NCBI RefSeq assembly: GCF_003217235.1
Contig: NZ_QJTF01000024.1
Location: 1 to 55,698 of the forward strand
Source: Paramesorhizobium leguminum
GTDB taxonomy: Bacteria; Pseudomonadota; Alphaproteobacteria; Rhizobiales; Rhizobiaceae
DNA length: 55,698 nt
Direction of reading: 5' to 3'
The translations under genes were made by a program, and so were the position numbers. Positions 22,150 to 50,357 of this stretch are shown piece by piece. The first letter of the stretch is position 1. The number at the start of each line of letters is the position of its first letter. The notes beneath the pieces are model-generated. The model made no database searches. It was not told the origin of the DNA and saw only the letters and a list, made by a program, of their open reading frames with translations.

Positions 22150-22255
22150 GACTGGTCGATAGTGCAGCCTATCAGACACCGCAAGTTTCATAAGCGATAA
22201 TTCTGAAAATTGCTCCAATCGCTTATTGGATTTGGCAGCGCCAACCCTCTAAAGA

Positions 22256-22270
22256 TGACTATTATTGTCA
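22256..22270. promoter_or_regulatory. Iron-responsive operator candidate (TGA-N9-TCA), locus 1
   Basis: TGACTATTATTGTCA has the TGA-N9-TCA form described for RirA-type iron boxes in rhizobia. It lies just upstream of the TonB receptor start. The same pattern occurs at 50358-50372 before the second receptor, which strengthens both. The 6-bp constraint occurs often by chance, so the weight comes from paired placement. Confidence 0.6.
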
Positions 22271-22278
22271 TATTTATC

Positions 22279-24444: not shown

Positions 24445-24464
24445 GGGGTCCGGTGAGCGCTGAA

Positions 24465-24506
24465 GCATGATCCTGAAAAGTTGCAGACTTCCAGGTAAGA
24501 TCATGC
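24465..24506. terminator. Hairpin of the RIME-like second module
   Basis: Arms GCATGATC (24465-24472) and GATCATGC (24499-24506) enclose a second pairing, CCTG/CAGG and AAGT/ACTT around a TGCAG loop. It is the second module of the 107-bp repeat without the first. It sits between the receptor stop and the fhuD-like start and could reduce read-through or stabilise the receptor message. Confidence 0.6.
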
Positions 24507-24540
24507 GGCTACAAAGACTTGAAGCATGACGGAGAGAATG

Positions 24541-25422: not shown

Positions 25423-27383
25423 GACCCGCCGCGTATTGGGTGCTCCCGCTGTTTATTTCCATCGGGGCGGCGGCGCTGCTTGGCCATGCGGCCATATCAT
25501 TGCTGCCGATGGCAAGCTGGCCCGCATTCCCCTTCGATCCGGACCGGATGACGACGCAGCAGATCATCCTTGCCTATGGTCTTTTTCCGAGAGCGGCGGT
25601 GGCGGTTCTGGCAGGGGCAGCGCTCGGTCTCGCCGGAGCGCTTCTCCAGCAACTTCTTCATAACCCGATCGCCGACCCGTCAACTTTAGGCGTCTCGTCG
25701 GGAGCACAGCTTGCCATTGTTGCCGCCACGCTGTTCTTTCCCTCGGTGCTGGACGGCCATCGTGAACTCGTCGCGCTCGGCGGCGCTGCAATAGCCGCCG
25801 GTATCGTCTTTTCGATTGGCTGGCGTCGCTCCTTCGATCCGGTCTCGATGGTCGTATCGGGGTTGCTGGTCGGCATCACTGCAAGCGCCTTGTCGGCGGC
25901 ACTGACGCTCTCCCAAGGGGAATATCTGATGTCGCTCGTCACATGGAATGGCGGCGCGCTCAGCCAGCAGGACTGGTCGGTTGCGCAACGGCTTGCCGTG
26001 GAACTTGTCATCGGCGGCGCAATCGCGCTTCTGCTGGCGCGCCCGCTCCATCTGCTCAGCCTTGGCGATACGGGCGCTCGTTCGCTCGGCATATCGCTCA
26101 CCTGGCTTAGGCTCGCGGTCTCATCGCTCGCCGTTTGCCTCGCAGCCGGTGTCGCGGCAAGCGTCGGGCTGGTCAGTTTCATCGGGCTCGCCGCGCCGAC
26201 GCTGGTCAGAAGCTGCGGCTTGCGGCGGCCCGTTGCCGTGCTTCTTGCCTCAGCTGCGGCTGGCGGGATACTGCTATGGTTCTGCGACGGCGTGGTGCAG
26301 TTGCTGGCGGCGACGACGAGTGAGACCTTCCCGACAGGGGCGATAACCGGGCTGCTCGGCGCTCCACTCCTGCTCTGGCTTCTCCCCAGGATAAGCATCG
26401 TCGCGGTTCCGCAGAACGGGGCGGTTTCGATCAACCGGCGGAGGCGCAGCGCGCTTGTCCTGCCCCTCATCCTGTTGCTGGCTGTGGCATCCATCGGACT
26501 TCTGATCGGAAAGATGGCGCATGGCTGGCAGATATTGCCGGCAACGGAAGTGCGCGATCTTCTCCCCCTGCGCTGGCCCCGGCTGCTCGCTGCGGCTGCG
26601 GCGGGCAGTCTTCTAGCCATGGCCGGCACGCTGCTTCAGCGCCTGACGGCCAATCCGATGGCGAGCCCGGAGGTCATCGGAGTGAGCGGCGGCGCCGGCA
26701 TCGGCTTTGCGGCGGCGATCACCATCTTCCCCGCCGCTGGCATGGCGGCGCTGTTCACCGGCGCCGGCCTTGGAGCGATATTGGTGATGGGCGTCGTGCT
26801 GCTCTATGCCAGTCAGAGGCACCTGGCGCCGGAGAGGCTTCTCCTTGCCGGCATCGCGGTCAGTTCATTCACGTCAGCCGTGCTGAGCGCGCTGCTGGCG
26901 GTCGGCGATCAGCGTTCCTGGCAGATATTGGCGTGGCTCGGCGGCTCGGCTTCGGCGGCGACGCCGGGCTCCGCCCTCATTCTTGCGATGCTCGCCTTAT
27001 TCGTGCTGGCAATCAGCCTCCTGCTCGCGCGCTGGCTTTCCGTATTGCCGCTGGGGCAAGCCGTTCCTCCCGCGCTCGGCGTGCCCCTGCGACCGGCGCG
27101 GCTTGCGATCATCCTAGTTGCAGGTTTGGCCACGGGCGCCGCTTCCATGCTGGTCGGTCCTTTAAGTTTCGTAGGCCTGATGGGCCCGCATATCGCCCTG
27201 AAAGCGGGCTTTGCCCGAGCGCAAGACCAAGTGCTCGCCGCCTGCCTGATCGGCGCTCTCCTGATGACGCTTGCCGATCTTGGCGCAAGGACGCTGACCT
27301 TCCCCTACGAGCTGCCGCTCGGCCTGTTCGCCGCCCTGGCGGGCGCGCCCTATCTTGCCTGGCTGATCGGGTGGCGGAAATAA
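25419..27383 (+). CDS. fhuB: FhuB-like fused siderophore permease (locus 1)
   Basis: This 654-residue inner-membrane permease is made of two FecCD units in tandem, as in E. coli FhuB. The first unit has ALGLAGALLQQLLHNPIADP and TLGVSSGAQLAIV; the second repeats the pattern as AMAGTLLQRLTANPMASPEV and IGVSGGAGIGFAAAI. Each half ends with a typical GLAAPTLVRSCGLRR or GLMGPHIALKAGF coupling region. The start is the TTG at 25419, forced by overlap with the FhuD-like stop (TTGA). No ATPase gene (FhuC) follows, so the transporter must borrow one encoded elsewhere. Confidence 0.9.
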   Translation: MRPAAYWVLPLFISIGAAALLGHAAISLLPMASWPAFPFDPDRMTTQQIILAYGLFPRAAVAVLAGAALGLAGALLQQLLHNPIADPSTLGVSSGAQLAIVAATLFFPSVLDGHRELVALGGAAIAAGIVFSIGWRRSFDPVSMVVSGLLVGITASALSAALTLSQGEYLMSLVTWNGGALSQQDWSVAQRLAVELVIGGAIALLLARPLHLLSLGDTGARSLGISLTWLRLAVSSLAVCLAAGVAASVGLVSFIGLAAPTLVRSCGLRRPVAVLLASAAAGGILLWFCDGVVQLLAATTSETFPTGAITGLLGAPLLLWLLPRISIVAVPQNGAVSINRRRRSALVLPLILLLAVASIGLLIGKMAHGWQILPATEVRDLLPLRWPRLLAAAAAGSLLAMAGTLLQRLTANPMASPEVIGVSGGAGIGFAAAITIFPAAGMAALFTGAGLGAILVMGVVLLYASQRHLAPERLLLAGIAVSSFTSAVLSALLAVGDQRSWQILAWLGGSASAATPGSALILAMLALFVLAISLLLARWLSVLPLGQAVPPALGVPLRPARLAIILVAGLATGAASMLVGPLSFVGLMGPHIALKAGFARAQDQVLAACLIGALLMTLADLGARTLTFPYELPLGLFAALAGAPYLAWLIGWRK

Positions 27384-32090: not shown

Positions 32091-34771
32091 TGGCTGACCG
32101 CGACCCGACGAACCGCCCCGACCCCGATGCCCTGCTGGCGCTGGCCGAACAGGACCGGCGGGGGAAGCTTACGGTTTTTCTGGGCGCGGCCCCTGGTGTA
32201 GGAAAAACCTACGCCATGCTGATGCGCGCGCAGCGTTTGAGGCAAGAGGGCATCGACATCGTCATCGGCCTTGTCGAAACCCACGGGCGCAGTGAAACGG
32301 CTGCCCTGCTTCACGGGCTGGAGGTTCTGCCGCGCCGGGAGGTGATTCATAACGGAAAGTGCCTCCAGGAATTCGATCTGGATAGCGCGCTGGCGCGGCG
32401 CCCACGCATTATCATCGTCGATGAGCTTGCGCATACCAATCTGGGAGAGGTCCGTCATCCCAAGCGCTATCAGGATATCGAGGAACTCATCGACGCCGGC
32501 ATCGATGTCTGGACGGCGCTCAACATCCAGCATCTGGAAAGCCTATCGGATGTTGTCGCACAGATCGCCGGGGTGCCCGTGCGGGAACGTATTCCCGATA
32601 CCGTGCTCAAGCGCGCCGACGACGTGCTTCTGGTGGATCTGCCACCAGCTGAGCTGATCGAGCGGCTGAAAGAAGGAAAGGTCTATCTGCCTGACAATGC
32701 CAGGCGCGCCACCGACCGTTTCTTCCGGCTGGGCAATCTTACGGCTCTGCGCGAACTGGCTCTCAGGCGCACCGCCGACCGGGTCGATGACCAGATGGTC
32801 GACTATTTGCGCCAGAATGCCATCGAAGGCCCTTGGGCGACGGGCGAAAGGCTCCTTGTCTGTGTAGGCCCCGATCCGCTGTCGGAAAAGGTTGTGAGGA
32901 CGGCTGCCAGGCTCGCATCCGGCCTTAACGCCGACTGGATTGTCGTGTCGGTGGAGCATGTGGAGGCGGCGCCTAAAAGCAGCGAAGGACTGCGGCAGCT
33001 TGATGAGACTCTTCGCCTCGCCGAACAATTGGGCGCGGAAACACGTCGCATAACCGGGAGTGATTTTGTCGAGGAGATACTGAAGCTCGCCCGGCGGGAA
33101 CACGCCACGCAGATCGTCATCGGCGCGCGGCGCGACCGTTTGCCTTATCGGCTCTTCCGCCGCTCTCTCGCTGACGCCCTGGCGGCACGGGTCCCGGGAA
33201 TCGGTATCCATCTCGTCACCGATAAGTGCGACGCCGCTTCAAAACCAAAGGCGAGGCGCGGCAAAAGGGTCCTTGCCGCCGGTAGCGCCCGCGCGCTTGC
33301 TATCGCCATAGCATCCGTCACCGTGGCAACCGCGCTGGGACTGGGACTCGACCGGTTCCTCCCGCTGCAGAACATTTCGCTGCTCTATATGCTGGCCGTG
33401 CTCGTCTCGGCGGCTTATGCCGGCTATCTCGCGGCCATTTCAGCGGCGATCATATCGGCCCTGGCCTATAATTTCTGTTTCATCGAGCCGGTCGGTACCT
33501 TCACCATCGCCAAGCCGCACGAGGTCTTCGCGCTCTTCATCTTCCTCGCCGCCGCGATGCTTGCCGGGGGGCTCGCCTCGCGCGTCCGCGAACAGGCTAC
33601 GACCGCGCGGCGGCGGGCGGCGGCGGCGCAGGCGCTTTACGATTTCTCCCGCAAACTCTCCGGCGCCGCCAAGGCGGAGGACGTGCTCTGGGCAGCGGTA
33701 AACCAGATGCATACGACCTTCCGGCGCAGCGCGGTGTTGCTACTGCCGAAAGATGGCGACGTCGCCGTGATGGCGGCCTGGCCGCCGGACACCGAACTAA
33801 GCGTCACCGATATGACCGCCGCCCGCTGGGCCTTCGAAAAGAAGGAAGCGGCCGGGAACGACACCGGCACGCTGCCGAACAGCCCATTTCAGTTCAGGCC
33901 GCTGAAAAGCCCGCAAGGCATCGCCGGCGTGTGCGGATTTTTACAGGACGGCAAGCCGCTGGAGCCGGATGAGGAACGCCTTCTCTCGGCGGTTCTCGAC
34001 CAGACCGCAATCGCAATCGACCGGGCGCGGCTTTCACGCGAAAGTCTCGATCAGGCCGCACGGCTGGAGGGGGAGAAATTCCGCGCCGCGCTGCTTTCCT
34101 CACTCTCCCACGATCTTCGAACGCCGCTGGCGACGATCACCGGAGCGGTGACGACTTTGCGCCAGTTCGGCGAGCGGATGTCTCTTGAGAGCCGCGACGA
34201 TCTTTTGAAATCGATCGAGGAGGAGGGGGACAGGCTCATGCGGTTTGTCGCCAATCTGCTCGACATGACCCGTATCGAGGCCGGAACGATCAATGCCCGG
34301 CGTGACTGGGTGGATGTTGCCGATGTTGTGCACGGGGCTGTCGAGCGGGCGCGAAAATATTTCCCCGGCCGCGTCTTCGAGACGAGCCTTTCCCCCGATC
34401 TGCCGTTGATGCGCGGCGACGGCGTGCTTTTGGGTCAGGTGCTGTTTAACCTGCTCGATAACGCCAACCGGTTCGGCGGCGATGAGCCGGTCAGCATCTA
34501 TGCGCGGCGGCATGAGGACGAGATCGTGGTCTCCGTGACCGATCTTGGCAAAGGCATCCCGCCAGCCGATCTTGGCCATGTTTTCGATAGATTCTTCCGG
34601 AAAGGAAAACCCGATGGTCGCTCGCCCGGTATGGGCCTTGGCCTCTCGATAGCCAAGGGTTTCGTCGAGGCGATGGGCGGGCGCATCAAGGCGGAGAGTC
34701 CGGCGTGGAAGCGTCGCGGCACACGTATGACCATGCGGTTTCCTGTTGCCGAGACCAAGGAGCGCCGATGA
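32090..34771 (+). CDS. kdpD: KdpD, K+ limitation sensor histidine kinase
   Basis: This sensor kinase of about 893 residues has the full Kdp architecture. An N-terminal KdpD domain carries a Walker A-like FLGAAPGVGKTYAML and IIIVDELAHTNLGEVRHPKR, and is followed by a universal-stress-protein domain (ATQIVIGARRDRLPYRLFR). Four membrane helices lie around residues 405-500 (NISLLYMLAVLVSAAYAGYL), then a GAF-like region. The phosphoacceptor block is LLSSLSHDLRTPLATITGAV (His near residue 673), and the ATPase lobe has LLDNANRF, DLGKGIPP and GMGLGLSIAKGF. It is coupled to kdpE by an ATGA overlap. Confidence 0.95.
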   Translation: MADRDPTNRPDPDALLALAEQDRRGKLTVFLGAAPGVGKTYAMLMRAQRLRQEGIDIVIGLVETHGRSETAALLHGLEVLPRREVIHNGKCLQEFDLDSALARRPRIIIVDELAHTNLGEVRHPKRYQDIEELIDAGIDVWTALNIQHLESLSDVVAQIAGVPVRERIPDTVLKRADDVLLVDLPPAELIERLKEGKVYLPDNARRATDRFFRLGNLTALRELALRRTADRVDDQMVDYLRQNAIEGPWATGERLLVCVGPDPLSEKVVRTAARLASGLNADWIVVSVEHVEAAPKSSEGLRQLDETLRLAEQLGAETRRITGSDFVEEILKLARREHATQIVIGARRDRLPYRLFRRSLADALAARVPGIGIHLVTDKCDAASKPKARRGKRVLAAGSARALAIAIASVTVATALGLGLDRFLPLQNISLLYMLAVLVSAAYAGYLAAISAAIISALAYNFCFIEPVGTFTIAKPHEVFALFIFLAAAMLAGGLASRVREQATTARRRAAAAQALYDFSRKLSGAAKAEDVLWAAVNQMHTTFRRSAVLLLPKDGDVAVMAAWPPDTELSVTDMTAARWAFEKKEAAGNDTGTLPNSPFQFRPLKSPQGIAGVCGFLQDGKPLEPDEERLLSAVLDQTAIAIDRARLSRESLDQAARLEGEKFRAALLSSLSHDLRTPLATITGAVTTLRQFGERMSLESRDDLLKSIEEEGDRLMRFVANLLDMTRIEAGTINARRDWVDVADVVHGAVERARKYFPGRVFETSLSPDLPLMRGDGVLLGQVLFNLLDNANRFGGDEPVSIYARRHEDEIVVSVTDLGKGIPPADLGHVFDRFFRKGKPDGRSPGMGLGLSIAKGFVEAMGGRIKAESPAWKRRGTRMTMRFPVAETKERR

Positions 34772-35460
34772 CGACCGAACGCATACTTGTCGTGGATGAC
34801 GAACCGCAAATCCAACGGTTCCTTCGTCCCGCGCTTATCGCCGCAGGCTATGAAGTGCTGGAGGCGGAAAACGGTACGCAGGCCCTCAAGGCAGCCGCGA
34901 CGGCGGCACCCGACATCGTTATCCTCGATCTCGGCCTTCCCGACATGGACGGTAAGGATGTGGTCGCCAATATCCGGGCCTGGTCACAGGTGCCGATCAT
35001 CATCCTTTCGGCGCGCGACCGGGAAAGTGAAAAGATCGCCGCGCTCGACCTGGGCGCTGATGATTATATCGAAAAACCTTTCAGAATCGGGGAGCTGACC
35101 GCGCGCATCCGCGCGGCGTTGCGCCATCGCATCCAGATGGAGGGAGGTCAGGCGCAGCTCATCGCCGATGGCCTCTCTATCGATATCGTCAAGCGTATCG
35201 TGACCCGCGACGGTGAGGCATTGCGGCTGACGCCAAAGGAATATGACCTCCTGGTCATGCTGGCGCGCCATGCGGGCCGCGTGGTCACGCACAGGACGCT
35301 TTTAACTTCGATATGGGGGGCGGCGCATGGCGATGATTTGCATTACTTAAGGGTCTTCATCGGCCAGTTGCGCGGCAAGATCGAACGCGATCCCGGTAAT
35401 CCGAAGGTTGTGCGCACCGAACCGGGGGTCGGTTATCGGTTCGTCGGCGACGAAGACTGA
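34768..35460 (+). CDS. kdpE: KdpE, response regulator of the kdp operon
   Basis: This 230-residue OmpR/PhoB-type regulator has a receiver domain with acidic pocket DDE (residues 10-12), phosphoacceptor Asp54 in VILDLGLPDMDG and a conserved Lys in DYIEKPF. The winged-helix C-terminal domain contains LRLTPKEYDLLVMLARHAGR and ends VRTEPGVGYRFVG. The ATG at 34768 overlaps the kdpD stop by 4 bp; a longer in-frame opening exists but has no support. A kdpE cistron directly after kdpD is standard. It precedes the lanthipeptide locus by 275 bp. Confidence 0.95.
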   Translation: MTTERILVVDDEPQIQRFLRPALIAAGYEVLEAENGTQALKAAATAAPDIVILDLGLPDMDGKDVVANIRAWSQVPIIILSARDRESEKIAALDLGADDYIEKPFRIGELTARIRAALRHRIQMEGGQAQLIADGLSIDIVKRIVTRDGEALRLTPKEYDLLVMLARHAGRVVTHRTLLTSIWGAAHGDDLHYLRVFIGQLRGKIERDPGNPKVVRTEPGVGYRFVGDED

Positions 35461-35735: not shown

Positions 35736-35903
35736 ATGATCTCGAACACTTTCAACAGACAGTTGGCTGCAAGCGTCATTGGGCGCCGCATGCAGATTGA
35801 AACAAACAATGCGCTCTGCAGCGATGGTTGTAGCACGGGATGTACAGAGGCGGGGCGTTGCCATCAGGCCAGGATTGGTGAGGCGAACAAAGCGTCCTCA
35901 TGA
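35736..35903 (+). CDS. Lanthipeptide precursor peptide 1
   Basis: This 55-residue peptide is preceded by CGGAG ten bases before the ATG. Its first 28 residues share 16 identities without gaps with the second small gene: MIS--FN--LA--VIGRR-----NN-LC. The C-terminal part has Cys at 28, 32, 36 and 42 with Ser29, Ser33, Thr34, Thr37, Ser54 and Ser55, a composition suited to thioether rings. A LanM synthetase gene 0.8 kb downstream on the same strand makes a class II lanthipeptide precursor the best reading. There is no double-glycine leader cleavage motif, so where the leader ends is unknown; the shared block stops around residue 28. No homologue is known to me. Confidence 0.78.
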   Translation: MISNTFNRQLAASVIGRRMQIETNNALCSDGCSTGCTEAGRCHQARIGEANKASS

Positions 35904-35922
35904 ATCTTGAGTGTCTAGGGTG

Positions 35923-35970
35923 TGCGTGCCGTTAGTCTTGCCTGGTACCCAGCGCGGCTGACGGCACGCA
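35923..35970 (+). terminator. Hairpin between the two precursor genes
   Basis: Thirteen-base arms TGCGTGCCGTTAG (35923-35935) and CTGACGGCACGCA (35958-35970) pair with a single T-G wobble around a 22-base loop. It lies 19 bp after the stop of precursor 1 and 41 bp before precursor 2. There is no U-run, so it may attenuate or protect the precursor 1 message, lowering expression of the downstream enzymes relative to the first peptide, a usual arrangement in RiPP operons. Confidence 0.55.
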
Positions 35971-36011
35971 TCACATGCGAACAATCGAGAATGCGAACAA
36001 TGGAGAAAAAA

Positions 36012-36149
36012 ATGATTTCGACAAAATTCAACGACAAATTGGCCGAGGCGGTGATCGGCCGCCGTCAGCGGGTCGCTGCAAACAACCCGCTTTGTACCGG
36101 CGATCATACTTATTGCTGGAATGCCTGTTTACAGTCCCGCAGGAACTGA
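36012..36149 (+). CDS. Lanthipeptide precursor peptide 2
   Basis: This 45-residue peptide has GGAGA at 36002-36006 before the ATG. Its leader is a clear duplicate of precursor 1 (FNDKLAEAVIGRR, then NNPLC), and even the sequence around the two start codons is similar. The C-terminal part reads CTGDHTYCWNACLQSRRN from residue 28, with Cys28, Cys35, Cys39 and dehydratable Thr29, Thr33, Ser42: enough for up to three thioether rings. Cys28 and a Ser/Thr at 29 are shared with precursor 1; the rest of the core differs. Two different cores under one leader suggest either a two-component product or a diversified pair made by one LanM. Confidence 0.78.
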   Translation: MISTKFNDKLAEAVIGRRQRVAANNPLCTGDHTYCWNACLQSRRN

Positions 36150-36193
36150 CAAGGATTTTTCAGATCCGCGGGCAATGGTGAGCGAGGTCTATC

Positions 36194-36694
36194 ATGACCA
36201 TGGAAATTATGAGGGCATCCTCTGCCCCCGTCGATATCGCCGGCCAGATATTCCAATACGACTATTTCACCGATCATTTCAGGGATGAGACGTTTTCGTT
36301 TAGGGAGTTTTTGATCGACGCTGAAAGCGTGTCCTGCATTGTCGATCTCGATAGCTACGAGCCGACGAATGTCTCCTTGCTGTTGCTGGATAGAATTTTG
36401 CAATCCCTGGGCTTTGCCGTATCTGCCTATATTCTCCAGCAGCAAGGACGACAATTCAAGTTTCTGTTCATCAAGGGCATCCGGTGGAATTTTGCCGGTC
36501 CGATCAGGCCTGGCCGTCCTGTCAGGCTGCAGTCAACCTACGACATGCAATTTCTTTCTCCCCGGAAAGCCGTTTGCACTTTCGACGGCACGGTGAACGA
36601 CGGCAAGGCTGCTTTCAATGTCGCCATCGAGATTTTCAGTCCTCATGAGGCTCCGTGGGATATCGAAACAAGCCCAATTCCAGCGTCCAATTGA
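36194..36694 (+). CDS. FabA/FabZ-like hotdog protein, catalytic His missing
   Basis: This 166-residue protein looks like a beta-hydroxyacyl-ACP dehydratase fold. The helix LLLLDRILQSLGFAVSAY (residues 62-79) matches the FabA central helix with its catalytic Asp (here Asp66) and the following Gln (Gln70) and GF. The C-terminal strands IRWNFAGPIRPGRPVRLQST and VCTFDGTVNDGKAAFNVAIE follow the FabA/FabZ order. The catalytic His should lie 14 residues before the Asp; position 52 is Leu and no HFPG motif is present, so dehydratase activity is unlikely. It sits 44 bp after precursor 2 and 40 bp before lanM, so it is a dedicated part of the locus. Acyl-chain or carrier-protein binding is the natural guess, not shown. 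Confidence 0.65.
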   Translation: MTMEIMRASSAPVDIAGQIFQYDYFTDHFRDETFSFREFLIDAESVSCIVDLDSYEPTNVSLLLLDRILQSLGFAVSAYILQQQGRQFKFLFIKGIRWNFAGPIRPGRPVRLQSTYDMQFLSPRKAVCTFDGTVNDGKAAFNVAIEIFSPHEAPWDIETSPIPASN

Positions 36695-36734
36695 GTTTTG
36701 GAGAGGAGAGAAGGGGGACGAAAGGAGAAGGCAG

Positions 36735-39476
36735 ATGCCATCGACAGATTCCCCCTTCGAACAGGAGGTTTTTGCTGACCTCTACCGTCATCTGATTATC
36801 GACGGCTACAATCAACTCCAGCGGCTTCGAACCCGGCTTGTTCCGGAGGCGACGCTGCAAGACCTTGCCGAAACGGCCTTCGTGCCGCTCGCGCGCAAAG
36901 CGTGGGAACGCTTGTTCATGGTTGAAATGAACTTCGCTGATCAGGAAGGCCTGCTCCAGGGAAGGACGGAAGCCGAGCGCTTCGAATTCTTCGTGGACGA
37001 AGTTATGAAGCCGGAGAATTTTGCCCTGCTCTTGCGCAAATATCCCGGCCTTGAGGAGCAATGGCAGCGGGACATTTCGACATATACGACAGCTCTCGTC
37101 CAACTCATCGAGCGTATCGAACAAGATATCGGACGTGTTGCGCGGGAGTTTTACGGTGACGAATCCATCGGCGAGGTCAGAAAAATCAGTCTGGTCGGAG
37201 ACCCGCACCGAGGCATGCAGCAATCGGCGAGAATAGACTATGCCGATGGCGAGGGGAAAGCCCGAACAGTCTATTACAAGGCCCGAAACCTCGCCATCGA
37301 TGAGGGGTTTTTCAACTTCATCGCGTGGTGGAACCAGCACGCTCCGATCGAACATCGCGCTCCGCGTGTTCTGAACCGCGGGGAATACGGGTGGGCCGAA
37401 GCCATCCCCCGGAAGGAATGCGAGAACCAGGATCAAGTTCGCGCCTTTTATCGTCGCTACGGGTCCATCCTGGCTTTCGCTCAAATCTTTGCCGCGAGAG
37501 ATCTTCACATGGAAAATATCATCGCCAGCGGCGAATACCCTGTTATCGTCGATCTCGAAACGCTGTTTTCATGCACGCTGGCATATGAACAGCATAGCCC
37601 AGCAATTCATCATCTCTACTCGTCCCTGCTTTTGCCGGCCCGTTTCAGCGAAGACGAAATGGAGGTCAGCCCGCTTGGCGCTCAAGCCAACACGATGACG
37701 ACGATCGAGGTGCTTGCCAACCCACAGCGGCGCAGCAGCGCGCTCAAGATGGAATCCCGGAAATGGGTCACGGGAGATTACGGCTCCAAGGTGTTTCTTG
37801 TGGGCGAGACGGTCGACTTTGTTCAGTACGAAGACTGTCTGGTCGAGGGATTGCGCGACACCCTAAATTATTTCAACGAAAACCGGGCCAGCCTTCAGGA
37901 GATCCTCACCCGGGTCATGAGCGGCGCCTGGGTTCGCATCGTCCGCCGCGCGACGGCGGAATACATCAAGGTTCTGAATAATGTCTATCACCCGGAATCC
38001 CTCGCTTATCAGGAAGCGCGCCGGGATATCCGCGCGCTAACCTGCGATATGAAGGACGGAGATATCCTGGCGTCGGAATTGGAGGAGCTGGAGCGCGGAG
38101 ATGTCCCTTATTTTCAGATGCCCTTTGACGAAGCCGTTCTGTTCGATGGTCGCGGACGAGCGCTGGCGACGCCGGTATTCCACTCGCCACGCCAGAACGT
38201 TGAATATGAACTCTCGCGTCTGACAGGGGCATTCATCGACCAGGTGACGGAAGATATCCGCTTTTCTTTCCTGATCTATCGCGCCAACAAGCGGCAGGGC
38301 GCTGTGGCGCTTGGACCAGCCTATGACAATCTTGCCGGCGTCCCGGACGACCGGTGGCTCGGTGAACTCGGACGTATCGTGCTGGGTCACTTGATGGACA
38401 GGGCGATGGTTCTGGAAGACTATCGGTATTGGCGCAATGTCGATATGGTGGACGAAAGCACGGTGCGCATGGGGCTGAGCGGTATCGATCTCTATGACGG
38501 CACCGCCGGCCTCGCGCTTGCCTTCCATGCCGTCGGACGATGGCTATCCTGCGAACGGTTCCTCGATTTCGCACGCGTGCTGACAAACCAGACGATCCGC
38601 GCGCTTGAGAAAGTGAAGAACGCCACGCCGGGTGCTTACTCCGGTACCATCGGAGTTTTGTGGGCGGCGAGTGTCGCCCAATCGGATCGGCTGCCCCAAC
38701 TGTTGCCGCCGCTTGACCGCGAGCTCGCCAATTTGTCCCGCCATCTCATCACGAACGAATGGATCGATTATAAGGATCTGGATATCATCGGCGGCGTGGC
38801 GGGTATGCTGCAGATGCTTCTGAGATTGCACCGTATCTATCGAGACTTTCCCGTTGCCGATGTCATCGAGAAGCTCTCAGGTTTCGCATTCGAGCTTTTA
38901 AAGGAGAAATCCCCGGTTCTTCTCAATGATGAAACGTTGCTCGGTTTCGCTCACGGGACAGCCGGGGTTTCCGCGGTGCTTGCCGAGTATATGACGTATT
39001 TCGGTCAACACGATCCGGAGGCGGTCGCGACGATCATGCGCCACATTGCCCATGAGACCCGTTACCGGACCGATGCCGGTTGGCGGCGGCTGGACAAAGG
39101 TGGCGGGTGCAACACGTCCTGGTGTCATGGCACCGTGGGAATAGGTTTTTCGCGGCTGCAATGCCGGCCTTATATTCCTGATGATGTCTATGAGGCCGAT
39201 ATGGGGATAGTCACTGCCCGGCTGGGCGAGAGACAGCCCTCCTTATGCCTGTGTCATGGCATGATTGCGGATTACTGGCTCGCGCGCGCCCTCGGTCTTG
39301 ACTGTGCCGGTATCCTGCATCGAATCCGCCGGGAAACCGAACTCCACGGCATCAGCACCGATATGGGGCTGAACGGATTCGAGCTTGTAGGCGCCATGAG
39401 TGGCGTCAGCAGCCTCTTTGTCGGGGAAACACTGTTTCTGACCGGAGAGGGCTCTCTTAGAGCGGTATGTAATTAA
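36735..39476 (+). CDS. lanM: LanM-type class II lanthipeptide synthetase
   Basis: This 913-residue enzyme is of the family that phosphorylates and dehydrates Ser/Thr of a precursor, then closes Cys thioether rings. The start at 36735 follows AAGGAGAAGG. The dehydratase half has GDPHRG (155-160), VYYKARNLAIDEGFF (179-193), the kinase-like DLHMENIIA (256-264) and VIVDLETLF (270-278). The LanC-like cyclase half has the GFAHGTAG motif (His740) and zinc ligands in SWCHG (Cys797) and LCLCHG (Cys840, His841). The C-terminus AMSGVSSLFVGETLFLTGEG is near the normal family end, and the final residues and stop codon are supplied by the palindromic repeat. No LanT or protease gene is adjacent. LanM is uncommon in alphaproteobacteria. 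Confidence 0.93.
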   Translation: MPSTDSPFEQEVFADLYRHLIIDGYNQLQRLRTRLVPEATLQDLAETAFVPLARKAWERLFMVEMNFADQEGLLQGRTEAERFEFFVDEVMKPENFALLLRKYPGLEEQWQRDISTYTTALVQLIERIEQDIGRVAREFYGDESIGEVRKISLVGDPHRGMQQSARIDYADGEGKARTVYYKARNLAIDEGFFNFIAWWNQHAPIEHRAPRVLNRGEYGWAEAIPRKECENQDQVRAFYRRYGSILAFAQIFAARDLHMENIIASGEYPVIVDLETLFSCTLAYEQHSPAIHHLYSSLLLPARFSEDEMEVSPLGAQANTMTTIEVLANPQRRSSALKMESRKWVTGDYGSKVFLVGETVDFVQYEDCLVEGLRDTLNYFNENRASLQEILTRVMSGAWVRIVRRATAEYIKVLNNVYHPESLAYQEARRDIRALTCDMKDGDILASELEELERGDVPYFQMPFDEAVLFDGRGRALATPVFHSPRQNVEYELSRLTGAFIDQVTEDIRFSFLIYRANKRQGAVALGPAYDNLAGVPDDRWLGELGRIVLGHLMDRAMVLEDYRYWRNVDMVDESTVRMGLSGIDLYDGTAGLALAFHAVGRWLSCERFLDFARVLTNQTIRALEKVKNATPGAYSGTIGVLWAASVAQSDRLPQLLPPLDRELANLSRHLITNEWIDYKDLDIIGGVAGMLQMLLRLHRIYRDFPVADVIEKLSGFAFELLKEKSPVLLNDETLLGFAHGTAGVSAVLAEYMTYFGQHDPEAVATIMRHIAHETRYRTDAGWRRLDKGGGCNTSWCHGTVGIGFSRLQCRPYIPDDVYEADMGIVTARLGERQPSLCLCHGMIADYWLARALGLDCAGILHRIRRETELHGISTDMGLNGFELVGAMSGVSSLFVGETLFLTGEGSLRAVCN

Positions 39477-39563
39477 GCCGAATCGGGCATCCCGCTCTAA
39501 GTCTTTGTTTTAACTGCATGATCTTGTTCGAAAAGTCTGCAACTTTTCGGGATCATGCTCTAG
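39458..39563. repeat. RIME-like double palindrome, copy 2
   Basis: This full-length copy of the element at 5573-5679 has about eight differences over 107 positions. It overlaps the last codons of lanM on the left (stop at 39474-39476) and the stop of the DUF411 gene on the right (39560-39562). Both convergent genes therefore end inside the repeat, which probably also folds as a bidirectional terminator. Confidence 0.88.
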
Positions 39564-40033
39564 TTCCGCACCGGGCTTGCGCCGCGAAAGCGCATGAACA
39601 TTGTCGGAGCCGCCGTACCGAACGCCATCACATCATAAGTCGCGGGCTCGGTGCCCGTTACTTCCATGCCCGGCGATCCCGCGGGCATCCCCGGCACGGC
39701 GAGGCCGCGTATGGATGGCCGGGTGGCGAGCAGGTGCTCCAGCGCTTGCGCAGGCACATGTCCTTCGAGAATGTAACCGTCCACCTCGGCCGTATGGCAG
39801 GACTGGACAGCGGATGGCACGCCCAGCCGCTCCTTTAGCGCGCTGATATCGGCTTCCTCGATGATCTTTGTCGGAAATCCGGCCTTCTTGATATGCTCGG
39901 CCCAGGCGCCGCAGCATCCGCAGGACGGGTCCTTATATATGGTGACAAGGGGACGATTGACTGCCCTTGCACCCGTCGGCGCGATGAGCACTGCGCCTGT
40001 AAGCAGCAATAAACGTCTGCGATCTATTTTCAT
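39560..40033 (-). CDS. DUF411 copper-associated metal-binding protein
   Basis: This 157-residue exported protein has the N-terminus KIDRRRLLLLTGAVLIAPTG, a likely Tat or Sec signal. The DUF411 core follows: TIYKDPSCGCCGAWAEHIKK (CxCC metal-binding motif, residues 38-41), SCHTAEVDGYILEGHVPAQA and GLAVPGMPAGSPGME. DUF411 proteins are frequent in copper and silver resistance operons; the CGCC and the C-H pair are likely metal ligands. It is the last gene of the copper operon, 55 bp after the CusF-like gene. Its stop codon lies in the palindromic repeat. Confidence 0.88.
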   Translation of the reverse strand: MKIDRRRLLLLTGAVLIAPTGARAVNRPLVTIYKDPSCGCCGAWAEHIKKAGFPTKIIEEADISALKERLGVPSAVQSCHTAEVDGYILEGHVPAQALEHLLATRPSIRGLAVPGMPAGSPGMEVTGTEPATYDVMAFGTAAPTMFMRFRGASPVRN

Positions 40034-44771: not shown

Positions 44772-46760
44772 TTATTCGCTTTTTGCCCAACGTCGTATCA
44801 TGAAATACGGTCCGCCGATGAAGGCGGCGAGCAGGCCGGCCGGCACCTGCCATGGAAAGATCACGGTTCGTCCCAGCCAGTCGGCGGCCAGCAGGATGAA
44901 ACCGCCTGTTAGCGCCGAGGCGAGAAGCTGGGGCAGGGCGCGCTGGAAGCCGAGTGTGCGAGCAAGGTGCGGCGCCATTAGACCGACGAAGCTCAATGGG
45001 CCGATGAGCAGGGTGGCGACGCCGGTCGGGATGGCGATCAGCAGCATGAGGATCAGGCGCGTGCGTTTCAGCGTGACGCCCAAGGCGCGTGTGCTGGTTT
45101 CACCGAGCGGCAGGATGTCCAGCCAGCGGGCGGTCAGGGGGAGTACTCCGAGAAGGAGGAGCGCTGTTGTCACGGCAGTGATGGCGTCGGGCCATGTGGC
45201 GCGGTAGGTCGAGCCGGCCATCCATGCCAGCAGATATTCGACCCGCTGATCGCCGGACGCGATGAACAGCGCCGAAAAGGTCGAGGCGATGGTCGTCAGC
45301 GAAACGCCGGCAAGCAGCAATTGGTCGCTGGAGAAATGGTTGCGGCGACCGACTGCCAGCAATGTGACAAGCGCGGCGAATGAGCCGGCGAGAGCGGCTG
45401 CGAGCATTGCGATATGATCGATGCCCCCGGTGAACAGCATGAGCGCGAGCACGCCGATGGTGGCGCCTCCCGATATGCCGAGGACCTCAGGCGCGGCCAT
45501 CGGGTTGCCGGTCATGCGCTGCATCAGCGTGCCGGCGAGCGCCAGCATGATGCCGCAGCCCAACGCGGTGAAGACGCGCGGAGCCCGCAGTTCCAAAAGC
45601 TCAGCCGAAAAGATCCAATGCCAGCCGCCGATGCCCCGGCCGAATGCCAGGGCAATGAGGAGCGTACCAACGAGTACGGCAATACCGATGCAGATATGTT
45701 TCCATGTGCCGCGCCGCACGGATGCATCAGCGGATTGAGCCGGACTGGGAATCGTGCGCAGCCTCGCCAGCAGAAACAGAAGCAGCGGCGCGCCGAGCAG
45801 GGCCGTTGCCGTACCGGTGGGTACTTCCGAGGGGAAAGGGGCGATCTGCACGAGGCGGTCGGTCAGCCACAGTAGCGAGGCTCCAGTCAGCGGCGCCCAT
45901 ATCAGCCGCTTACGCAGGGATCGCGCGCCCAGGAGATGCACGAGGGCGGGCGCGGCAAGCGCGACGAAGCTGATGACGCCGACATAGGCGACGACGACGC
46001 TGCTCAAGACGATGGCCACACCCAAGCCCGCCATGCGGATCAAGGCGGGACGAGAGCCCAGGCTCTGCACGCTTTCGCTGCCAAGTTCGAGCAGGATGAG
46101 CGGGCGCAGCATCGCGGAAGCTGCAACGAGGCTCACGGCGAGCCAGGGGATCAGGGATATGACGTCGGCATCGCCGTTCTGGATGAGCGATCCGCTTTGC
46201 CAGATGAACAGTTCCTCGGAATATTCATGGTTGAGCGCCATCAGCAAGGCGCCGGCGGAGCTGCAGGTCAGGCTGACGATCAAGCCTGACATGATGACGG
46301 CGACCGGCGAGAAAGCACGGCCCCGTGCCGTCATGAAGACGATGGCCGTCGTTACCGCTCCGCCCAGAAGCGCGACCCAGACCCTGCCGCCGTCGAGCAT
46401 TGAGGGCGCATAAAGCGTGGCAACCGTTATGGCGAGGCTTGCCCCGGCATTGGTGCCGATGGTGGTCGGTTCCGCCAGCGGGTTACGCAGGATCTGTTGA
46501 AGGAGCACCCCGGTCAATCCCAGAGCCGCGCCCACGAGCGGCGCGATGAAAAGGCGTGGTAGCGCGGCGTATCGGAAAAGCAGTTGCTGCGGATTGTTGA
46601 GATCGGTTGAAGCAACAGCGTTCCACCAGAGGCCCAGCGGCAGGAGTTGCAAAAGGCCTGATATCGTCAGGGCCGCCGCGAGCAAAGCGGGGAGGGCGAC
46701 CAGAACGGTCAGCTTTCTCTGTTTGCCTGCCAGCGGTATCGAAGGGGATGCCATGCTCAT
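44772..46760 (-). CDS. fhuB: FhuB-like fused siderophore permease (locus 2)
   Basis: This 662-residue tandem FecCD permease is parallel to the one in locus 1. First half: ALGLTGVLLQQILRNPLAEP and TIGTNAGASLAITVATLYAP; second half: ALAGTLMQRMTGNPMAAPEV and LGISGGATIGVLALMLF. The ATG at 46760 overlaps the FhuD-like stop by 4 bp; an open frame continues much further upstream but is the FhuD gene in another frame. As in locus 1 no ATPase gene accompanies it. It ends the locus 2 transcript, about 90 bp before the exported His/Cys-rich protein. Confidence 0.9.
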   Translation of the reverse strand: MSMASPSIPLAGKQRKLTVLVALPALLAAALTISGLLQLLPLGLWWNAVASTDLNNPQQLLFRYAALPRLFIAPLVGAALGLTGVLLQQILRNPLAEPTTIGTNAGASLAITVATLYAPSMLDGGRVWVALLGGAVTTAIVFMTARGRAFSPVAVIMSGLIVSLTCSSAGALLMALNHEYSEELFIWQSGSLIQNGDADVISLIPWLAVSLVAASAMLRPLILLELGSESVQSLGSRPALIRMAGLGVAIVLSSVVVAYVGVISFVALAAPALVHLLGARSLRKRLIWAPLTGASLLWLTDRLVQIAPFPSEVPTGTATALLGAPLLLFLLARLRTIPSPAQSADASVRRGTWKHICIGIAVLVGTLLIALAFGRGIGGWHWIFSAELLELRAPRVFTALGCGIMLALAGTLMQRMTGNPMAAPEVLGISGGATIGVLALMLFTGGIDHIAMLAAALAGSFAALVTLLAVGRRNHFSSDQLLLAGVSLTTIASTFSALFIASGDQRVEYLLAWMAGSTYRATWPDAITAVTTALLLLGVLPLTARWLDILPLGETSTRALGVTLKRTRLILMLLIAIPTGVATLLIGPLSFVGLMAPHLARTLGFQRALPQLLASALTGGFILLAADWLGRTVIFPWQVPAGLLAAFIGGPYFMIRRWAKSE

Positions 46761-47794
46761 ATATTCGCCAGAAGTGCCGCGAAGCGTTGCGCGGCGAGGA
46801 GGGCGCCGAAGGGCCAGACCGGCGCAATCCTGATGACCTTGCCGTTCCTGACGCAGGGAAGGTTGTTCCAGAGCGAGCTGTTGTCGATGCGGATCTGGAC
46901 ATGTCGCGGGATGGGATCGAGCGAAATCAGGGTGGCATCGCCGATCGAGACCAGTTCCTCGATGCCGGCCTGCGCAAAGCCCCAATCCGTGGTTGGCCGA
47001 ACCCACGCATTGGCGAGCCCCAGCCTGTCCATCACATCCTGAAACAGGCTCCCCGCACCGTAGACGCGAACATGGCGGTCATCGAACATGCTGACCACGC
47101 AAAGCGGACGCGCCGCGCGGGGGGCAAGCTTCGTCCGCGCTTGGGCAATGGAATTTTCCACATTCGTAATCAATTGGTCCGCTTGTCGCTCACGGTCCAG
47201 CACGGTCCCCAGCCGCCGGGTTTCCGCGACGGCCTGTGCGTAGGGCGAAGACGTGCCGTCATAAAAGGGGATATTGAACACCGGCGCGAAGCGGATGAAG
47301 TCATTCGCGTCCAGCCCATAGCCATAGGCGCCGACGATGAGATCCGGTTGAAGCTCCGCCAGCAATTCGAGATTGGGCTCGCTGCGTGATCCGAGATCCA
47401 TGACGGATGCCGGCAATTGCGGTTCGACCACCCAGTCGCGATAGCCTCTTATGTCACCAACGGCGATGGGTGTTATTCCGAGCGATATCACCATCTCCGC
47501 CGACGTCCATTCGAGGCACACGACACGGCGCGGACGCGTTTCTGCAATGGCGGGACTGCCGCCGAACGATGCCAGCGCCAACCCGCCAAGAAATGCCCGC
47601 CTTGTGATGACTGGAGATACCCCCCTCTGCCCTGCCGGGCATCTCCCCCTCAAGGGGGGAGATTGGCTGGCATGGCTCACCGCACCCATCCAGCAATGTT
47701 GGCGATTGGCACCAACCGTCGGTGAAGGCGTAATCTCCCCCCTTGAGGGGGAGATGGCTGGCAAGCCAGAGGGGGGTGCCTCGAACGCAGTCAC
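46757..47794 (-). CDS. fhuD: FhuD-like siderophore-binding protein with repeat-derived 5' end (locus 2)
   Basis: The recognisable protein begins with a Tat-type signal ITRRAFLGGLALASFGGSPA (about residues 64-83 of the full frame) and continues as a FhuD-like receptor: RVVCLEWTSAEMVISLGITP, VMDLGSRSEPNLELLAELQP, RLGLANAWVRPTTDWG and PIPRHVQIRIDNSSLWNNLP. No ATG or GTG stands at the signal. The frame stays open through the palindromic repeat to ATG 47689 or GTG 47794, so the first 28 to 63 codons are repeat sequence. Either translation starts inside the repeat or the natural start was lost when it inserted. It overlaps the permease by 4 bp. Confidence 0.8.
   Translation of the reverse strand: MTAFEAPPSGLPAISPSRGEITPSPTVGANRQHCWMGAVSHASQSPPLRGRCPAGQRGVSPVITRRAFLGGLALASFGGSPAIAETRPRRVVCLEWTSAEMVISLGITPIAVGDIRGYRDWVVEPQLPASVMDLGSRSEPNLELLAELQPDLIVGAYGYGLDANDFIRFAPVFNIPFYDGTSSPYAQAVAETRRLGTVLDRERQADQLITNVENSIAQARTKLAPRAARPLCVVSMFDDRHVRVYGAGSLFQDVMDRLGLANAWVRPTTDWGFAQAGIEELVSIGDATLISLDPIPRHVQIRIDNSSLWNNLPCVRNGKVIRIAPVWPFGALLAAQRFAALLANI
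47619..47777. repeat. Second repeat family, copy A (inside fhuD-like 5' end)
   Basis: This 159-bp element has long inverted ends: ACCCCCCTCTG...GCATCTCCCCCTCAAG on the left, and CTTGAGGGGGAGAT...AGAGGGGGGT on the right. The centre includes GATTGGCACCAACCGTCG and AAGGCGTAATCTCCCC. It shares these blocks with 50420-50562. Elements of this look (CCCTCTGCCCTGCCGGGCATC at the ends) are familiar between genes of Brucella, Mesorhizobium and relatives. Confidence 0.85.
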
Positions 47795-47798
47795 GAAC

Positions 47799-50258
47799 CT
47801 ACCAGCTAACTTTCAACGTGCCGGTCACCCGGCGCCCCTCGCCATAGAAGCAGCCGAAACTTTCGGCGAAGCAGGAGGCGACGTAGGTCTTGTCGAAGAG
47901 ATTGCTGGCGCCGAGCTGCAATTGGACGTTCTTCCAATCGTAGCTGACAGAAGCATCGACCAGGGTCACGGCAGGCACCTTGAACGTATTCGCGTCGTCG
48001 CCATAAGTGGATCCGACATAGCGCACGCCCGCGCCAAGCCCGAGACCTTCGAGAGCGCCGCTCTGGACCTTATAGTTCGCCCAGAGCGATGCGCTGTGGG
48101 TGGGTACGCCGAATGGCGTGTTACCCTGATTGCTCGATCCGTCCTCGTTGACGGTGGTCGCCTTCGAAATCTCGGTATCGAGATAGGTATAGGCGAGCCG
48201 CAGATCGACGCCTGAAGCAACGCTGGCGACGCCCTCCAACTCGATGCCCCTAGAGGTGATCTCACCGGTCTGGAAGACCTCGTCGCCGGCGGAGCGCATG
48301 ACGTTCTGGCGGGTCAGTTCGAACGCGGAAAGCGTGATGAAGGAATTCCAGCCGACAGGCTGATATTTTACGCCCACCTCATATTGCCGGCCTGTTTCCG
48401 GCTCGAACGGGTTTCCGGCGCTATCGAACCCGGCCTCCGGCAGGAAGGACTCCGAGTAGCTGATATAGGGGGCAAGTCCATTGTCGGCGAGATAGACCAG
48501 TCCGGCGCGGCCGGTGAAGGCCTTGTCCTTCTGTTCTATATGCTGGTCGGCAATCGGATCGCTTACCTCGGAATTCACCCAGTCCTGACGTCCGCCAAGC
48601 GTCAGGTGCCATTTGTCGAGCGTGATCTGGTTCTGCGCGTAGAGGCCGATCTGCTCCTGAATGGTGGTGGTGTTCTGATAGGGCGTCAACTCACCGATCG
48701 GGCTGCCATAGACCGGATTCCAGATATCGAGCGGCTCAGCTGTCCCCTCGGCGGCGAAATCGCGGTATTTGTAACGGGAATAATCCAGCCCCATCAGGAA
48801 TTTGTGTTCCAGAGCGCCGGTCTCGAAATCGGCGAGCGCTTGCGTATCGATGGTCACGCCATGCAAGCGGCTGCCGCCGGCATCGGCATAACGGTCATAG
48901 GTGCGGCCATCTTCCTGCAGTCCGCCACCGAAAACACCTTCCTCATCATGCTTCATCCAGACATAGCGGGCGTTCTGCTTGATCTGCCACGTCTCATTGA
49001 AACGATGCTCGAACTCGTAGCCGATGGAGGCCTGCGTGTTGTTGTAGGTATCGAACCCCGGCTCGCCGACGAAACGGCTCGAAGGCAGCTTGCCGAAGCC
49101 GTGCGGGCTTGGCCTTATCGTGCCGTCGGCGGGCAGATATTGCATCGCCCAGCCCGACCGGTCGCGCTGGTAGTTGGAGAGGACCGTCAGCTTGGTGTCC
49201 TCATCGGGCTTCCAGGTCACCGATGGGGCGATGAAGACGCGATCTTCATTGACGTAATCGATCTGGGTATCGCCCTTTCGGACAAGCCCGACCAAGCGGT
49301 AATACAGGTCGCTTTCCGGCGACGCCTGCCCGCTGAAATCGAACCGTCCTTCCTTGCGGTTAAAGTTGCCGACGCTGAACGAAACATCGTTGATCCGCTC
49401 CTCGGTCGGCCGCTTGCTCACATAGTTGATGATGCCGCCCGGACCGGTCTGTCCATAGAGCACGGAAGCGGGGCCGCGCAGGATCTCGTAGCGCTCCGCG
49501 CCGAAGGGATCGAGCCCGGTGAAGAACACATACTGGCTTTCCTTCAGTTTCAGGCCGTCGCGGTAGAAGACGCCATGCGCGCTGGAAAGACCGCGCAACT
49601 GCACGCCCATGCCGCGATTGTCCGTGCCGTAGACATTGCCGTTCACGCCGGGGGTATAGCGCAGCACGCTGTTGAGGCTGTCCATGTTCATCGTGTCCAT
49701 CTGGTCGCGCGTGACGACGGAGACGGACTGCGGCGTTTCGATCAAGGGGGTATCGGTCTTCATGCCGGTGGAGCCCTGCTTGGCGACATAACCCTTGACC
49801 GGTCCCCAGGCGCTCTCGATGCGGGAATCGATGGTAATGGGGTTGAGAACGATCGCCCCCTCGGCTGCCGCACCGGTATCCCCCGTGGTCGCGCCGGTCG
49901 TCTCGATGAGCGTCACCGTTTTGGCATTGGTGAAGCGGTAGCTGAGGCCTGTACCGCTAAGAAGTTTGCCCAAGGCTTGCTCGCGCGTGAGACTTCCCGA
50001 AACGCCGCGCGAATTGCGGCCTCGGGCGAGATCGGCGGGGTAAAGCACCTGCAGATTGCTGCGCTCGCCGAACTGGGCAATCGCATTGCCGAGCGATGTA
50101 GCGGGAATGGCGTAGCTGACCCGGTTGGTGGTCGCCTGCTGCGCCGTTTGGGCGTTTGCCATGGCGGGATAGATTGCCGCCGTTGCCAGAAGCGCCACAT
50201 TCAAACGCGCCAGCGTTGCGCCGATCGCGCCAGTCAAACCTCTTCCAGTCCCCTGCAT
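47799..50258 (-). CDS. Transducing TonB-dependent siderophore receptor with STN domain (locus 2)
   Basis: This 819-residue receptor starts at the ATG at 50258, which has GAGGGAC before it. After the signal (to about AMANAQTAQQ) comes an STN/secretin domain (VSYAIPATSLGNAIAQFGER, SGSLTREQALGKLLSGTGLS, near residues 45-100), the mark of receptors that signal to a FecR anti-sigma factor. The plug has TPQSVSVVTRDQMDTM, AERYEILRGPASVLYGQTGP and GGIINYVSKRP; the barrel ends TLKVSW. Near the end CFAESFGCFYGEGRR parallels locus 1 and suggests a hydroxamate siderophore. fecR and fecI are upstream, separated by a repeat; FhuD/FhuB-like genes follow. Confidence 0.92.
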   Translation of the reverse strand: MQGTGRGLTGAIGATLARLNVALLATAAIYPAMANAQTAQQATTNRVSYAIPATSLGNAIAQFGERSNLQVLYPADLARGRNSRGVSGSLTREQALGKLLSGTGLSYRFTNAKTVTLIETTGATTGDTGAAAEGAIVLNPITIDSRIESAWGPVKGYVAKQGSTGMKTDTPLIETPQSVSVVTRDQMDTMNMDSLNSVLRYTPGVNGNVYGTDNRGMGVQLRGLSSAHGVFYRDGLKLKESQYVFFTGLDPFGAERYEILRGPASVLYGQTGPGGIINYVSKRPTEERINDVSFSVGNFNRKEGRFDFSGQASPESDLYYRLVGLVRKGDTQIDYVNEDRVFIAPSVTWKPDEDTKLTVLSNYQRDRSGWAMQYLPADGTIRPSPHGFGKLPSSRFVGEPGFDTYNNTQASIGYEFEHRFNETWQIKQNARYVWMKHDEEGVFGGGLQEDGRTYDRYADAGGSRLHGVTIDTQALADFETGALEHKFLMGLDYSRYKYRDFAAEGTAEPLDIWNPVYGSPIGELTPYQNTTTIQEQIGLYAQNQITLDKWHLTLGGRQDWVNSEVSDPIADQHIEQKDKAFTGRAGLVYLADNGLAPYISYSESFLPEAGFDSAGNPFEPETGRQYEVGVKYQPVGWNSFITLSAFELTRQNVMRSAGDEVFQTGEITSRGIELEGVASVASGVDLRLAYTYLDTEISKATTVNEDGSSNQGNTPFGVPTHSASLWANYKVQSGALEGLGLGAGVRYVGSTYGDDANTFKVPAVTLVDASVSYDWKNVQLQLGASNLFDKTYVASCFAESFGCFYGEGRRVTGTLKVSW

Positions 50259-50357
50259 GCCGTCCCTCTTAAACTCTTGAACACGTTCCCCGTGGCGCAA
50301 CAAAATGCGCCTGTCGATGGCATGACGAGTCCGGGCGGGGAGTCCCTCACCTAAATA

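Follow-up and report, generated by a model that had tools for sequence, protein, structure and literature searches.

A class II lanthipeptide locus with a predicted hotdog-fold partner, probably horizontally acquired, in Paramesorhizobium leguminum

Our analysis concerns a compact class II lanthipeptide locus in a stretch of 55,698 nucleotides (hereafter the window; contig NZ_QJTF01000024.1) from Paramesorhizobium leguminum, whose genome (assembly GCF_003217235.1) comprises 3.73 Mb in 67 contigs. The locus consists of four genes on one strand (Table 1): two small precursor genes (lanA1, lanA2), a gene for a protein with a predicted hotdog fold, and lanM, which encodes a lanthionine synthetase. 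An earlier note on this DNA, made from its letters alone, had described four genes in one direction with gaps of 40-110 bp, and the intergenic distances - 108 bp (lanA1/lanA2), 44 bp (lanA2/hotdog) and 40 bp (hotdog/lanM) - bear this out. GGAG-type ribosome sites accompany three of the four starts, the exception being the hotdog gene; an alternative lanM start at 36618 is possible, and we chose 36735 for its good ribosome site and its agreement with the N-termini of related enzymes. On one side the locus is flanked by kdpE (34705-35460) and on the other by a copper module whose first gene (39560-40033) lies on the opposite strand, with no further long coding-strand frames between the two.

Table 1. 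Features of the lanthipeptide locus, with coordinates in the window.
Feature	Coordinates	Strand	Remarks
lanA1 precursor, 55 aa	35736..35903	+	leader MISNTFNRQLAASVIG; core with 4 Cys and an LCS motif
stem-loop between lanA1 and lanA2	35920..35974	+	fold compared with shuffles; no U-run after the stem-loop by eye
lanA2 precursor, 45 aa	36012..36149	+	leader MISTKFNDKLAEAVIG; core with 3 Cys and an LCT motif
hotdog-fold accessory protein (predicted), 166 aa	36194..36694	+	no His common with its relative; Asp66 shared, probably at the catalytic-acid position
lanM, class II lanthionine synthetase, 913 aa	36735..39476	+	dehydratase D156 H158 K182 D256 H258 N261 D273 R401 T407; zinc ligands C797 C840 H841

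Family profiles agree with the earlier note in seeing a LanM synthetase in the last gene: its product scores 445 bits against TIGR03897 of NCBIfam (cut-off 304) and carries a DUF4135 (253 bits) and a LanC-like domain (108 bits) of Pfam. The residues that make up the dehydratase site of CylM (Asp252, His254, Lys274, Asp347, His349, Asn352, Asp364, Arg506 and Thr512; PMC4550811) have their equivalents, in this order, in the nine dehydratase positions of Table 1, and the zinc ligands of the cyclase are likewise present. All twelve residues are invariant across the window enzyme and its three close relatives described below, each of which also exceeds the curated cut-offs for the DUF4135 and LanC-like domains, and since they are kept, the sequence predicts an active enzyme.

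How rare such synthetases are in this part of the bacteria was gauged by whole-genome searches in overlapping samples of 394 family, 397 order and 385 class genomes, 395 relatives of one further carrier (G170) and three genera (6, 7 and 2 genomes). LanM matches turned up in 9, 7 and 8 genomes of the family, order and class (the window's genome counted in each), in 7 of the 395 relatives of G170 and in 2/6, 1/7 and 1/2 genomes of the three genera. One of the nine family matches, G295, has a 424-residue protein (L027 7985-9259, minus strand) that corresponds to the cyclase part of LanM only (query residues 580-852). The earlier note had placed LanM enzymes mostly in Firmicutes, Actinobacteria and Cyanobacteria; in Alphaproteobacteria they are indeed rare but not unheard of, phaeornamide having been described from this class (PMC9505594). 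A single-sequence scan of genome contigs gave one locus only, that of Phyllobacterium (now Paramesorhizobium) salinisoli with a LanM 54% identical to ours, so wider relatives may be missed. Close LanMs were present in just three sampled genomes, namely G206 (54%), whose locus is identical to the P. salinisoli contig, G158 (46-47%) and G170 (43-44%). Since the window's genome belongs to the same genus as P. salinisoli, the earlier assignment of a class II lanthipeptide locus to a rhizobial-type alphaproteobacterium is upheld.

In a tree of 23 LanMs, which left out L047, L027, CylM and LicM2, these four form a clade of their own (support 100/100), set apart by a stem 2.25 changes per column in length. 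Inside the clade the branching is not resolved, and loss and gain of the hotdog gene are not separable from the tree. Plasmid-borne LanMs are distant only, the best being 26.6% identical among the 40 of 191 matching records listed. As to the sequences left out of the tree, the LanM of G1115 (L047 6090-9433, minus strand) is spread over two overlapping frames, one of 676 and one of 930 residues, and may be split or frameshifted.

The two small peptides were said by the earlier note to be related, and they are: lanA1 and lanA2 reach a local score of 92, the maximum in 2000 shuffles being 45. Moreover, a peptide of the same leader family lies immediately upstream of LanM or of the hotdog gene in all four clade loci (five peptides in total), so homologous loci lacking both small peptides, which the earlier note had named as speaking against its proposal, are not found in this clade. 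The family was probed by leave-one-out, a profile of the other four leaders being run each time against 8815 frames from 29 sequences (the window plus 28 loci). In this way all five precursors were recovered (P0003, that is lanA1, at E 4.8e-6; P0004, that is lanA2, at 1.2e-6; P0006 at 0.013; P0010 at 3.7e-5; P0011 at 4.1e-9), and among the 8815 frames only these five fell below E 1. They share a leader of about 16 residues, [MV]-[IV]-S-x-[KTL]-[FY]-[ND]-x-x-[LI]-[AS]-x-x-[VL]-[IV]-G, and in shuffle tests with whole peptides seven of the ten pairs exceed all 2000 shuffles, the weakest (P0003/P0010) being reached by 18 of 2000. Because this clade-specific leader recurs in every locus, the small frames look, by sequence, like genuine precursors. 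None of the five matches NCBIfam, and P0003, P0004 and P0006 match neither Pfam (over cut-off) nor PHROGs; lanA1 had two sub-threshold Pfam hits (14.6 and 13.5 bits at cut-offs of 27), which were set aside.

Could the synthetase phosphorylate and dehydrate its peptides without closing any rings? There is a precedent in phospeptin, a phosphorylated peptide that arises from a minimal locus of one precursor and one maturase (PMC9505594). For the clade described here we find such an outcome hardly credible, given a complete LanC-like domain, the three zinc ligands in four of four LanMs, and both Cys and Ser/Thr in every one of the five precursors.

Leader and LanM go together in all four clade loci, but of the four-gene locus described in the earlier note the third member is not a constant part, as the hotdog gene occurs in two of the loci only (window and G170). 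These are also its only occurrences among the 394 family genomes. In both loci it sits between precursor and LanM, directly upstream of the latter, in the same order and with short gaps. A hotdog profile run on 20 LanM-like loci, two of them in the clade, found no such gene beside the 18 others (P. salinisoli, L002, was covered by the family-genome search instead), and plasmid and phage records held no matches. What the two loci have in common is their core type: all three peptides from hotdog loci carry an L-C-[S/T] motif after the leader (ALCS, PLCT, SLCT), and neither of the two from hotdog-less loci does, these having Cys within their last ten residues instead. One might argue that the hotdog gene is a passenger, or serves self-protection or regulation, and does not act on the peptide at all. 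Its absence from half of the clade would fit this, as would the fact that the locus holds no other candidate immunity gene; a passenger would, however, be expected elsewhere among the family genomes, and the same precursor-hotdog-LanM order with short gaps in both loci speaks for a tie to the pathway. So to our minds this explanation is somewhat unlikely. Be that as it may, natural loci with and without the gene make a ready test system for the role of a hotdog protein in peptide modification.

As for the fold itself, the evidence from sequence is weak: against the FabA family of Pfam (PF07977) the window protein scores 17.0 bits and its relative (P0005) 12.1 bits at a cut-off of 23. Two AlphaFold models match solved hotdog proteins, and they support, at the level of prediction, the hotdog fold that the earlier note had read into this gene. 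A FabA family search of the window's genome found its FabA and FabZ and not the hotdog gene; at the sequence level, the hotdog profile met only chance-level G protein matches in the PDB (best E 0.14), and a PHROGs scan of the window proteins gave nothing. A weak PHROGs match of P0005 (E 0.009) was set aside.

The window protein and P0005 are 38% identical, and between them Asp66 and its surroundings (VS-LLLLDRI-QSLGF) are invariant. Their alignment has no column with His in both, and 14 residues before the shared Asp, where FabA/FabZ would have their His, there is Leu52 in the window protein and Ile48 in P0005. Two hhalign runs both set Asp66 on the catalytic acid of FabA/FabZ, albeit at probabilities of only 5.7% and 0.8%, and the second places window His28 on the FabZ His, weakly and across a long gap, at a position that is Gln in P0005. 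A four-sequence MAFFT alignment disagrees in that it lays LLLLDRI on the N-terminal LL-DRI segment of FabZ/FabA, leaving their catalytic helix unmatched. We prefer the hhalign placing: in the model the central helix spans residues 62-83, and the Pfam match is aligned likewise. Asp66 is probably at the catalytic-acid position, though the placing is not fully secure. As the two proteins have no His in common, the family is not characterised by the His-acid pair; an acid common to its members is likely. A FabA-type dehydratase function was rejected for want of a shared His and on the sub-threshold Pfam score. From the FabA-like partner of the earlier note, the fold therefore stays and the enzymatic kinship goes.

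What might such a protein do? One option is that it binds without chemistry of its own and serves, in the manner of a chaperone or scaffold, to hold the precursor, LanM or an acyl group. The lack of a His common to both members would be consistent with this, and so would the Foldseek search with the second model, in which Cj0977 of Campylobacter came first (E 1.8e-4, with a TM-score of only 0.37), to our knowledge a hotdog protein without known enzymatic activity. Pointing the other way, the Asp66 region is invariant at an overall identity of 38%, as one would expect of a kept active-site acid, although two sequences cannot separate catalysis from structure. Non-catalytic binding is in our view a possibility to be taken seriously, if with somewhat less than even odds. 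A bolder proposal, and a rather unlikely one, is that we are looking at a novel type of lanthipeptide-tailoring enzyme, with this protein as the first example. Its Asp, in the absence of the FabA/FabZ His, would serve to bring about the addition of water or of a Cys thiol, as the nucleophile, to dehydrated Ser/Thr beside the L-C-[S/T] motif, or the reversal of such an addition. If true, a fold known mainly for thioester substrates would have been recruited to a ribosomal peptide.

The origin of the locus appears to lie outside its present surroundings. Its G+C content is 0.556, as against 0.615 upstream and 0.612 downstream, and the flanking modules match different plasmids (kdpDE those of Sinorhizobium up to 35461, the copper module one of Xanthobacter from 39557), each being conserved elsewhere without the lanthipeptide genes; among the annotated neighbours on these plasmids, whose gene tables are incomplete, there is no lan gene. 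In G170 the locus adjoins VirB4- and VirB6-type conjugation genes (L022 120-6207), and the P. salinisoli copy lies on a 5 kb contig between an integrase-core piece on one side and, by eye, a transposase-like piece on the other. We take the locus to be probably mobile and horizontally acquired. The hotdog gene of G170 has a G+C content of 0.34.

After lanA1 the RNA is predicted to form a stem-loop (z -4.0) that none of 200 shuffles matches, whereas the 44 bp gap after lanA2 is unremarkable (z -0.5). Comparable stretches follow the precursor in P. salinisoli (z -2.3) and G158 (z -3.7), so that in three loci 0, 5 and 0 of 200 shuffles fold as well; the fourth, in G170, is unremarkable (z -0.9; 40/200). 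Stem-loop elements after the precursor gene are usual in lantibiotic operons, and the one after lanA1 may set the amount of the first precursor relative to the rest. In P. salinisoli a strong hairpin (CCCTGTCAGGCCCGTGTAAGGGGCCTGACAGG; L002 1020-1110) lies between precursor and LanM, and an incomplete second copy immediately precedes it.

Taken together, we read the four genes as a self-contained operon for class II lanthipeptides, probably gained by horizontal transfer, in which LanM modifies both precursors and the hotdog protein is an accessory for L-C-[S/T] cores, and we would put the probability of this reading at roughly 0.7. LanM would recognise the shared leader, phosphorylate and dehydrate Ser/Thr of the cores and close thioether rings between some of the dehydrated residues and Cys, which would turn both precursors into lanthipeptides. 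The hotdog protein, tied as it seems to L-C-[S/T] cores, would most likely have these modified peptides as its target, whether it tailors them by means of its conserved Asp or binds them. Release of the product would then fall to a protease and an exporter of the host; we invoke them because the locus encodes neither.

Several points weigh against such a reading. Neither a LanT/C39 exporter nor a protease or immunity gene is found within the locus, whose neighbours are the kdp genes and the copper module, and scans for sigma-70 promoters and terminators gave no more hits than shuffles, with no promoter-like site standing apart. Unlinked C39 ABC exporters that look active exist in the window's genome, on a different contig, and in G206, one in each. 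That of the window's genome is a poor fit: C39 exporters prefer leaders ending in Gly-Gly, and the five leaders end in G-R, G-R, G-E, G-G and G-D, that is with Gly-Gly in just one. In the lanA2 core there are only three Ser/Thr for three Cys and the first core Cys has no Ser/Thr before it, so at least one of the Cys must stay outside a standard ring. As the hotdog gene is missing from two of four clade loci, LanM has no general need of it, and the link between hotdog gene and core type, resting on five peptides from four loci, is a lead rather than a statistic. Might the locus then be decaying or silent, its short frames not being true precursors? The lack of a promoter above shuffled background and of a linked exporter, as well as the place of the P. 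salinisoli copy among pieces of mobile elements, could be taken this way. Set against this are four intact frames, three of them with a GGAG site, a leader conserved in four of four loci, the kept catalytic residues of LanM and a post-precursor stretch that in three of four loci folds better than nearly all shuffles. We consider decay very improbable and keep to a working operon as the preferred reading.

With regard to export, joint transport and leader cleavage by a linked C39 transporter was rejected, there being none. G206 has a second C39 match (37.7 bits); the single match in G170 (26 bits) is a frame that by eye lacks the catalytic Cys, and in G158 (89% complete) no C39 exporter was found. 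The exporter of the window's genome, on contig 21 (L058 8380-10554, minus strand), carries a full C39 peptidase domain (125 bits) and adjoins a gene whose 391-residue product has no Pfam match at E 0.001; this may be a separate bacteriocin export locus. Elsewhere in the window, a type I secretion ABC transporter (549-2220, minus strand) beside an HlyD-like piece (2-499) looks broken, its frame 1261-2220 switching part-way, by eye, to unrelated letters as after a frameshift. Two sets of TonB-receptor and FecCD/FecB-type siderophore uptake genes (22210-27383 and 44772-50303) run, again by eye, in opposite directions on the distant flanks of the locus.

Among known synthetases, LicM2 and CylM, both with solved structures, have the same domain order and the same dehydratase and zinc residues as the window LanM. 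Profile alignments with them reach only 285 and 174 bits, respectively, and the clade proteins are shorter (902-913 aa versus 979 and 993 in the solved chains). The gene layout recalls two-peptide class II lantibiotic loci such as those of roseocin and lichenicidin: there, too, LanM shares an operon with a pair of precursors whose leader is conserved and whose cores differ. In roseocin a single LanM serves both precursors, as we propose here. The window locus departs from them in having no LanT, protease or immunity gene and in leaders that lie outside NCBIfam and below Pfam cut-offs.

For the hotdog protein, a parallel among class II lanthipeptide loci is DurN/Cinorf7, a small accessory protein that forms an extra cross-link (lysinoalanine) by Michael addition. 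Its fold differs from the hotdog, and the lanA2 core has no Lys that could enter a lysinoalanine. With the FabA/FabZ 3-hydroxyacyl-ACP dehydratases the window protein shares the hotdog fold and probably an acid at the position of the FabA Asp or FabZ Glu; these enzymes, however, pair a catalytic His with Asp/Glu 14 residues later, and the window pair has no shared His and stays below the Pfam cut-off. The CmiS1/SAV606 thioesterase is 8 and 14% identical, which ties it with many other hotdog proteins, and its substrate is described as a thioester, not a dehydrated peptide (PMC11284099). Among the papers listed by searches of the open literature, none dealt with a hotdog protein standing alone in a lanthipeptide locus or any other locus for ribosomally synthesised and post-translationally modified peptides (RiPPs), the nearest RiPP hotdog being an internal motif in MbnF, the flavin monooxygenase of methanobactin (PMC10167746). 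Large-scale lanthipeptide mining has been published (PMC7268733), with neither 'hotdog' nor any word starting 'rhizob' in the main text of that paper, and among the matches listed for lanthipeptide combined with Phyllobacterium or rhizobial terms nothing was recognised as the window locus.

A further known system is phaeornamide of Pseudophaeobacter, for which an alphaproteobacterial class II synthetase has already been described (PMC9505594). Both it and the window locus represent LanM-containing peptide pathways with accessory enzymes in an alphaproteobacterium; the accessory enzymes of phaeornamide are an arginase, a hydroxylase and a GNAT acyltransferase, alongside transporter genes, and ours has the hotdog protein only. 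Selidamides, which are fatty-acylated lanthipeptides, likewise have a GNAT acyltransferase in their loci, and the window locus is without one. LanM in Alphaproteobacteria is already known; new here are the family of leaders, the hotdog partner and the divergent clade of LanMs, a small and distinct group in Hyphomicrobiales that has its own precursors and lies in surroundings that look mobile.

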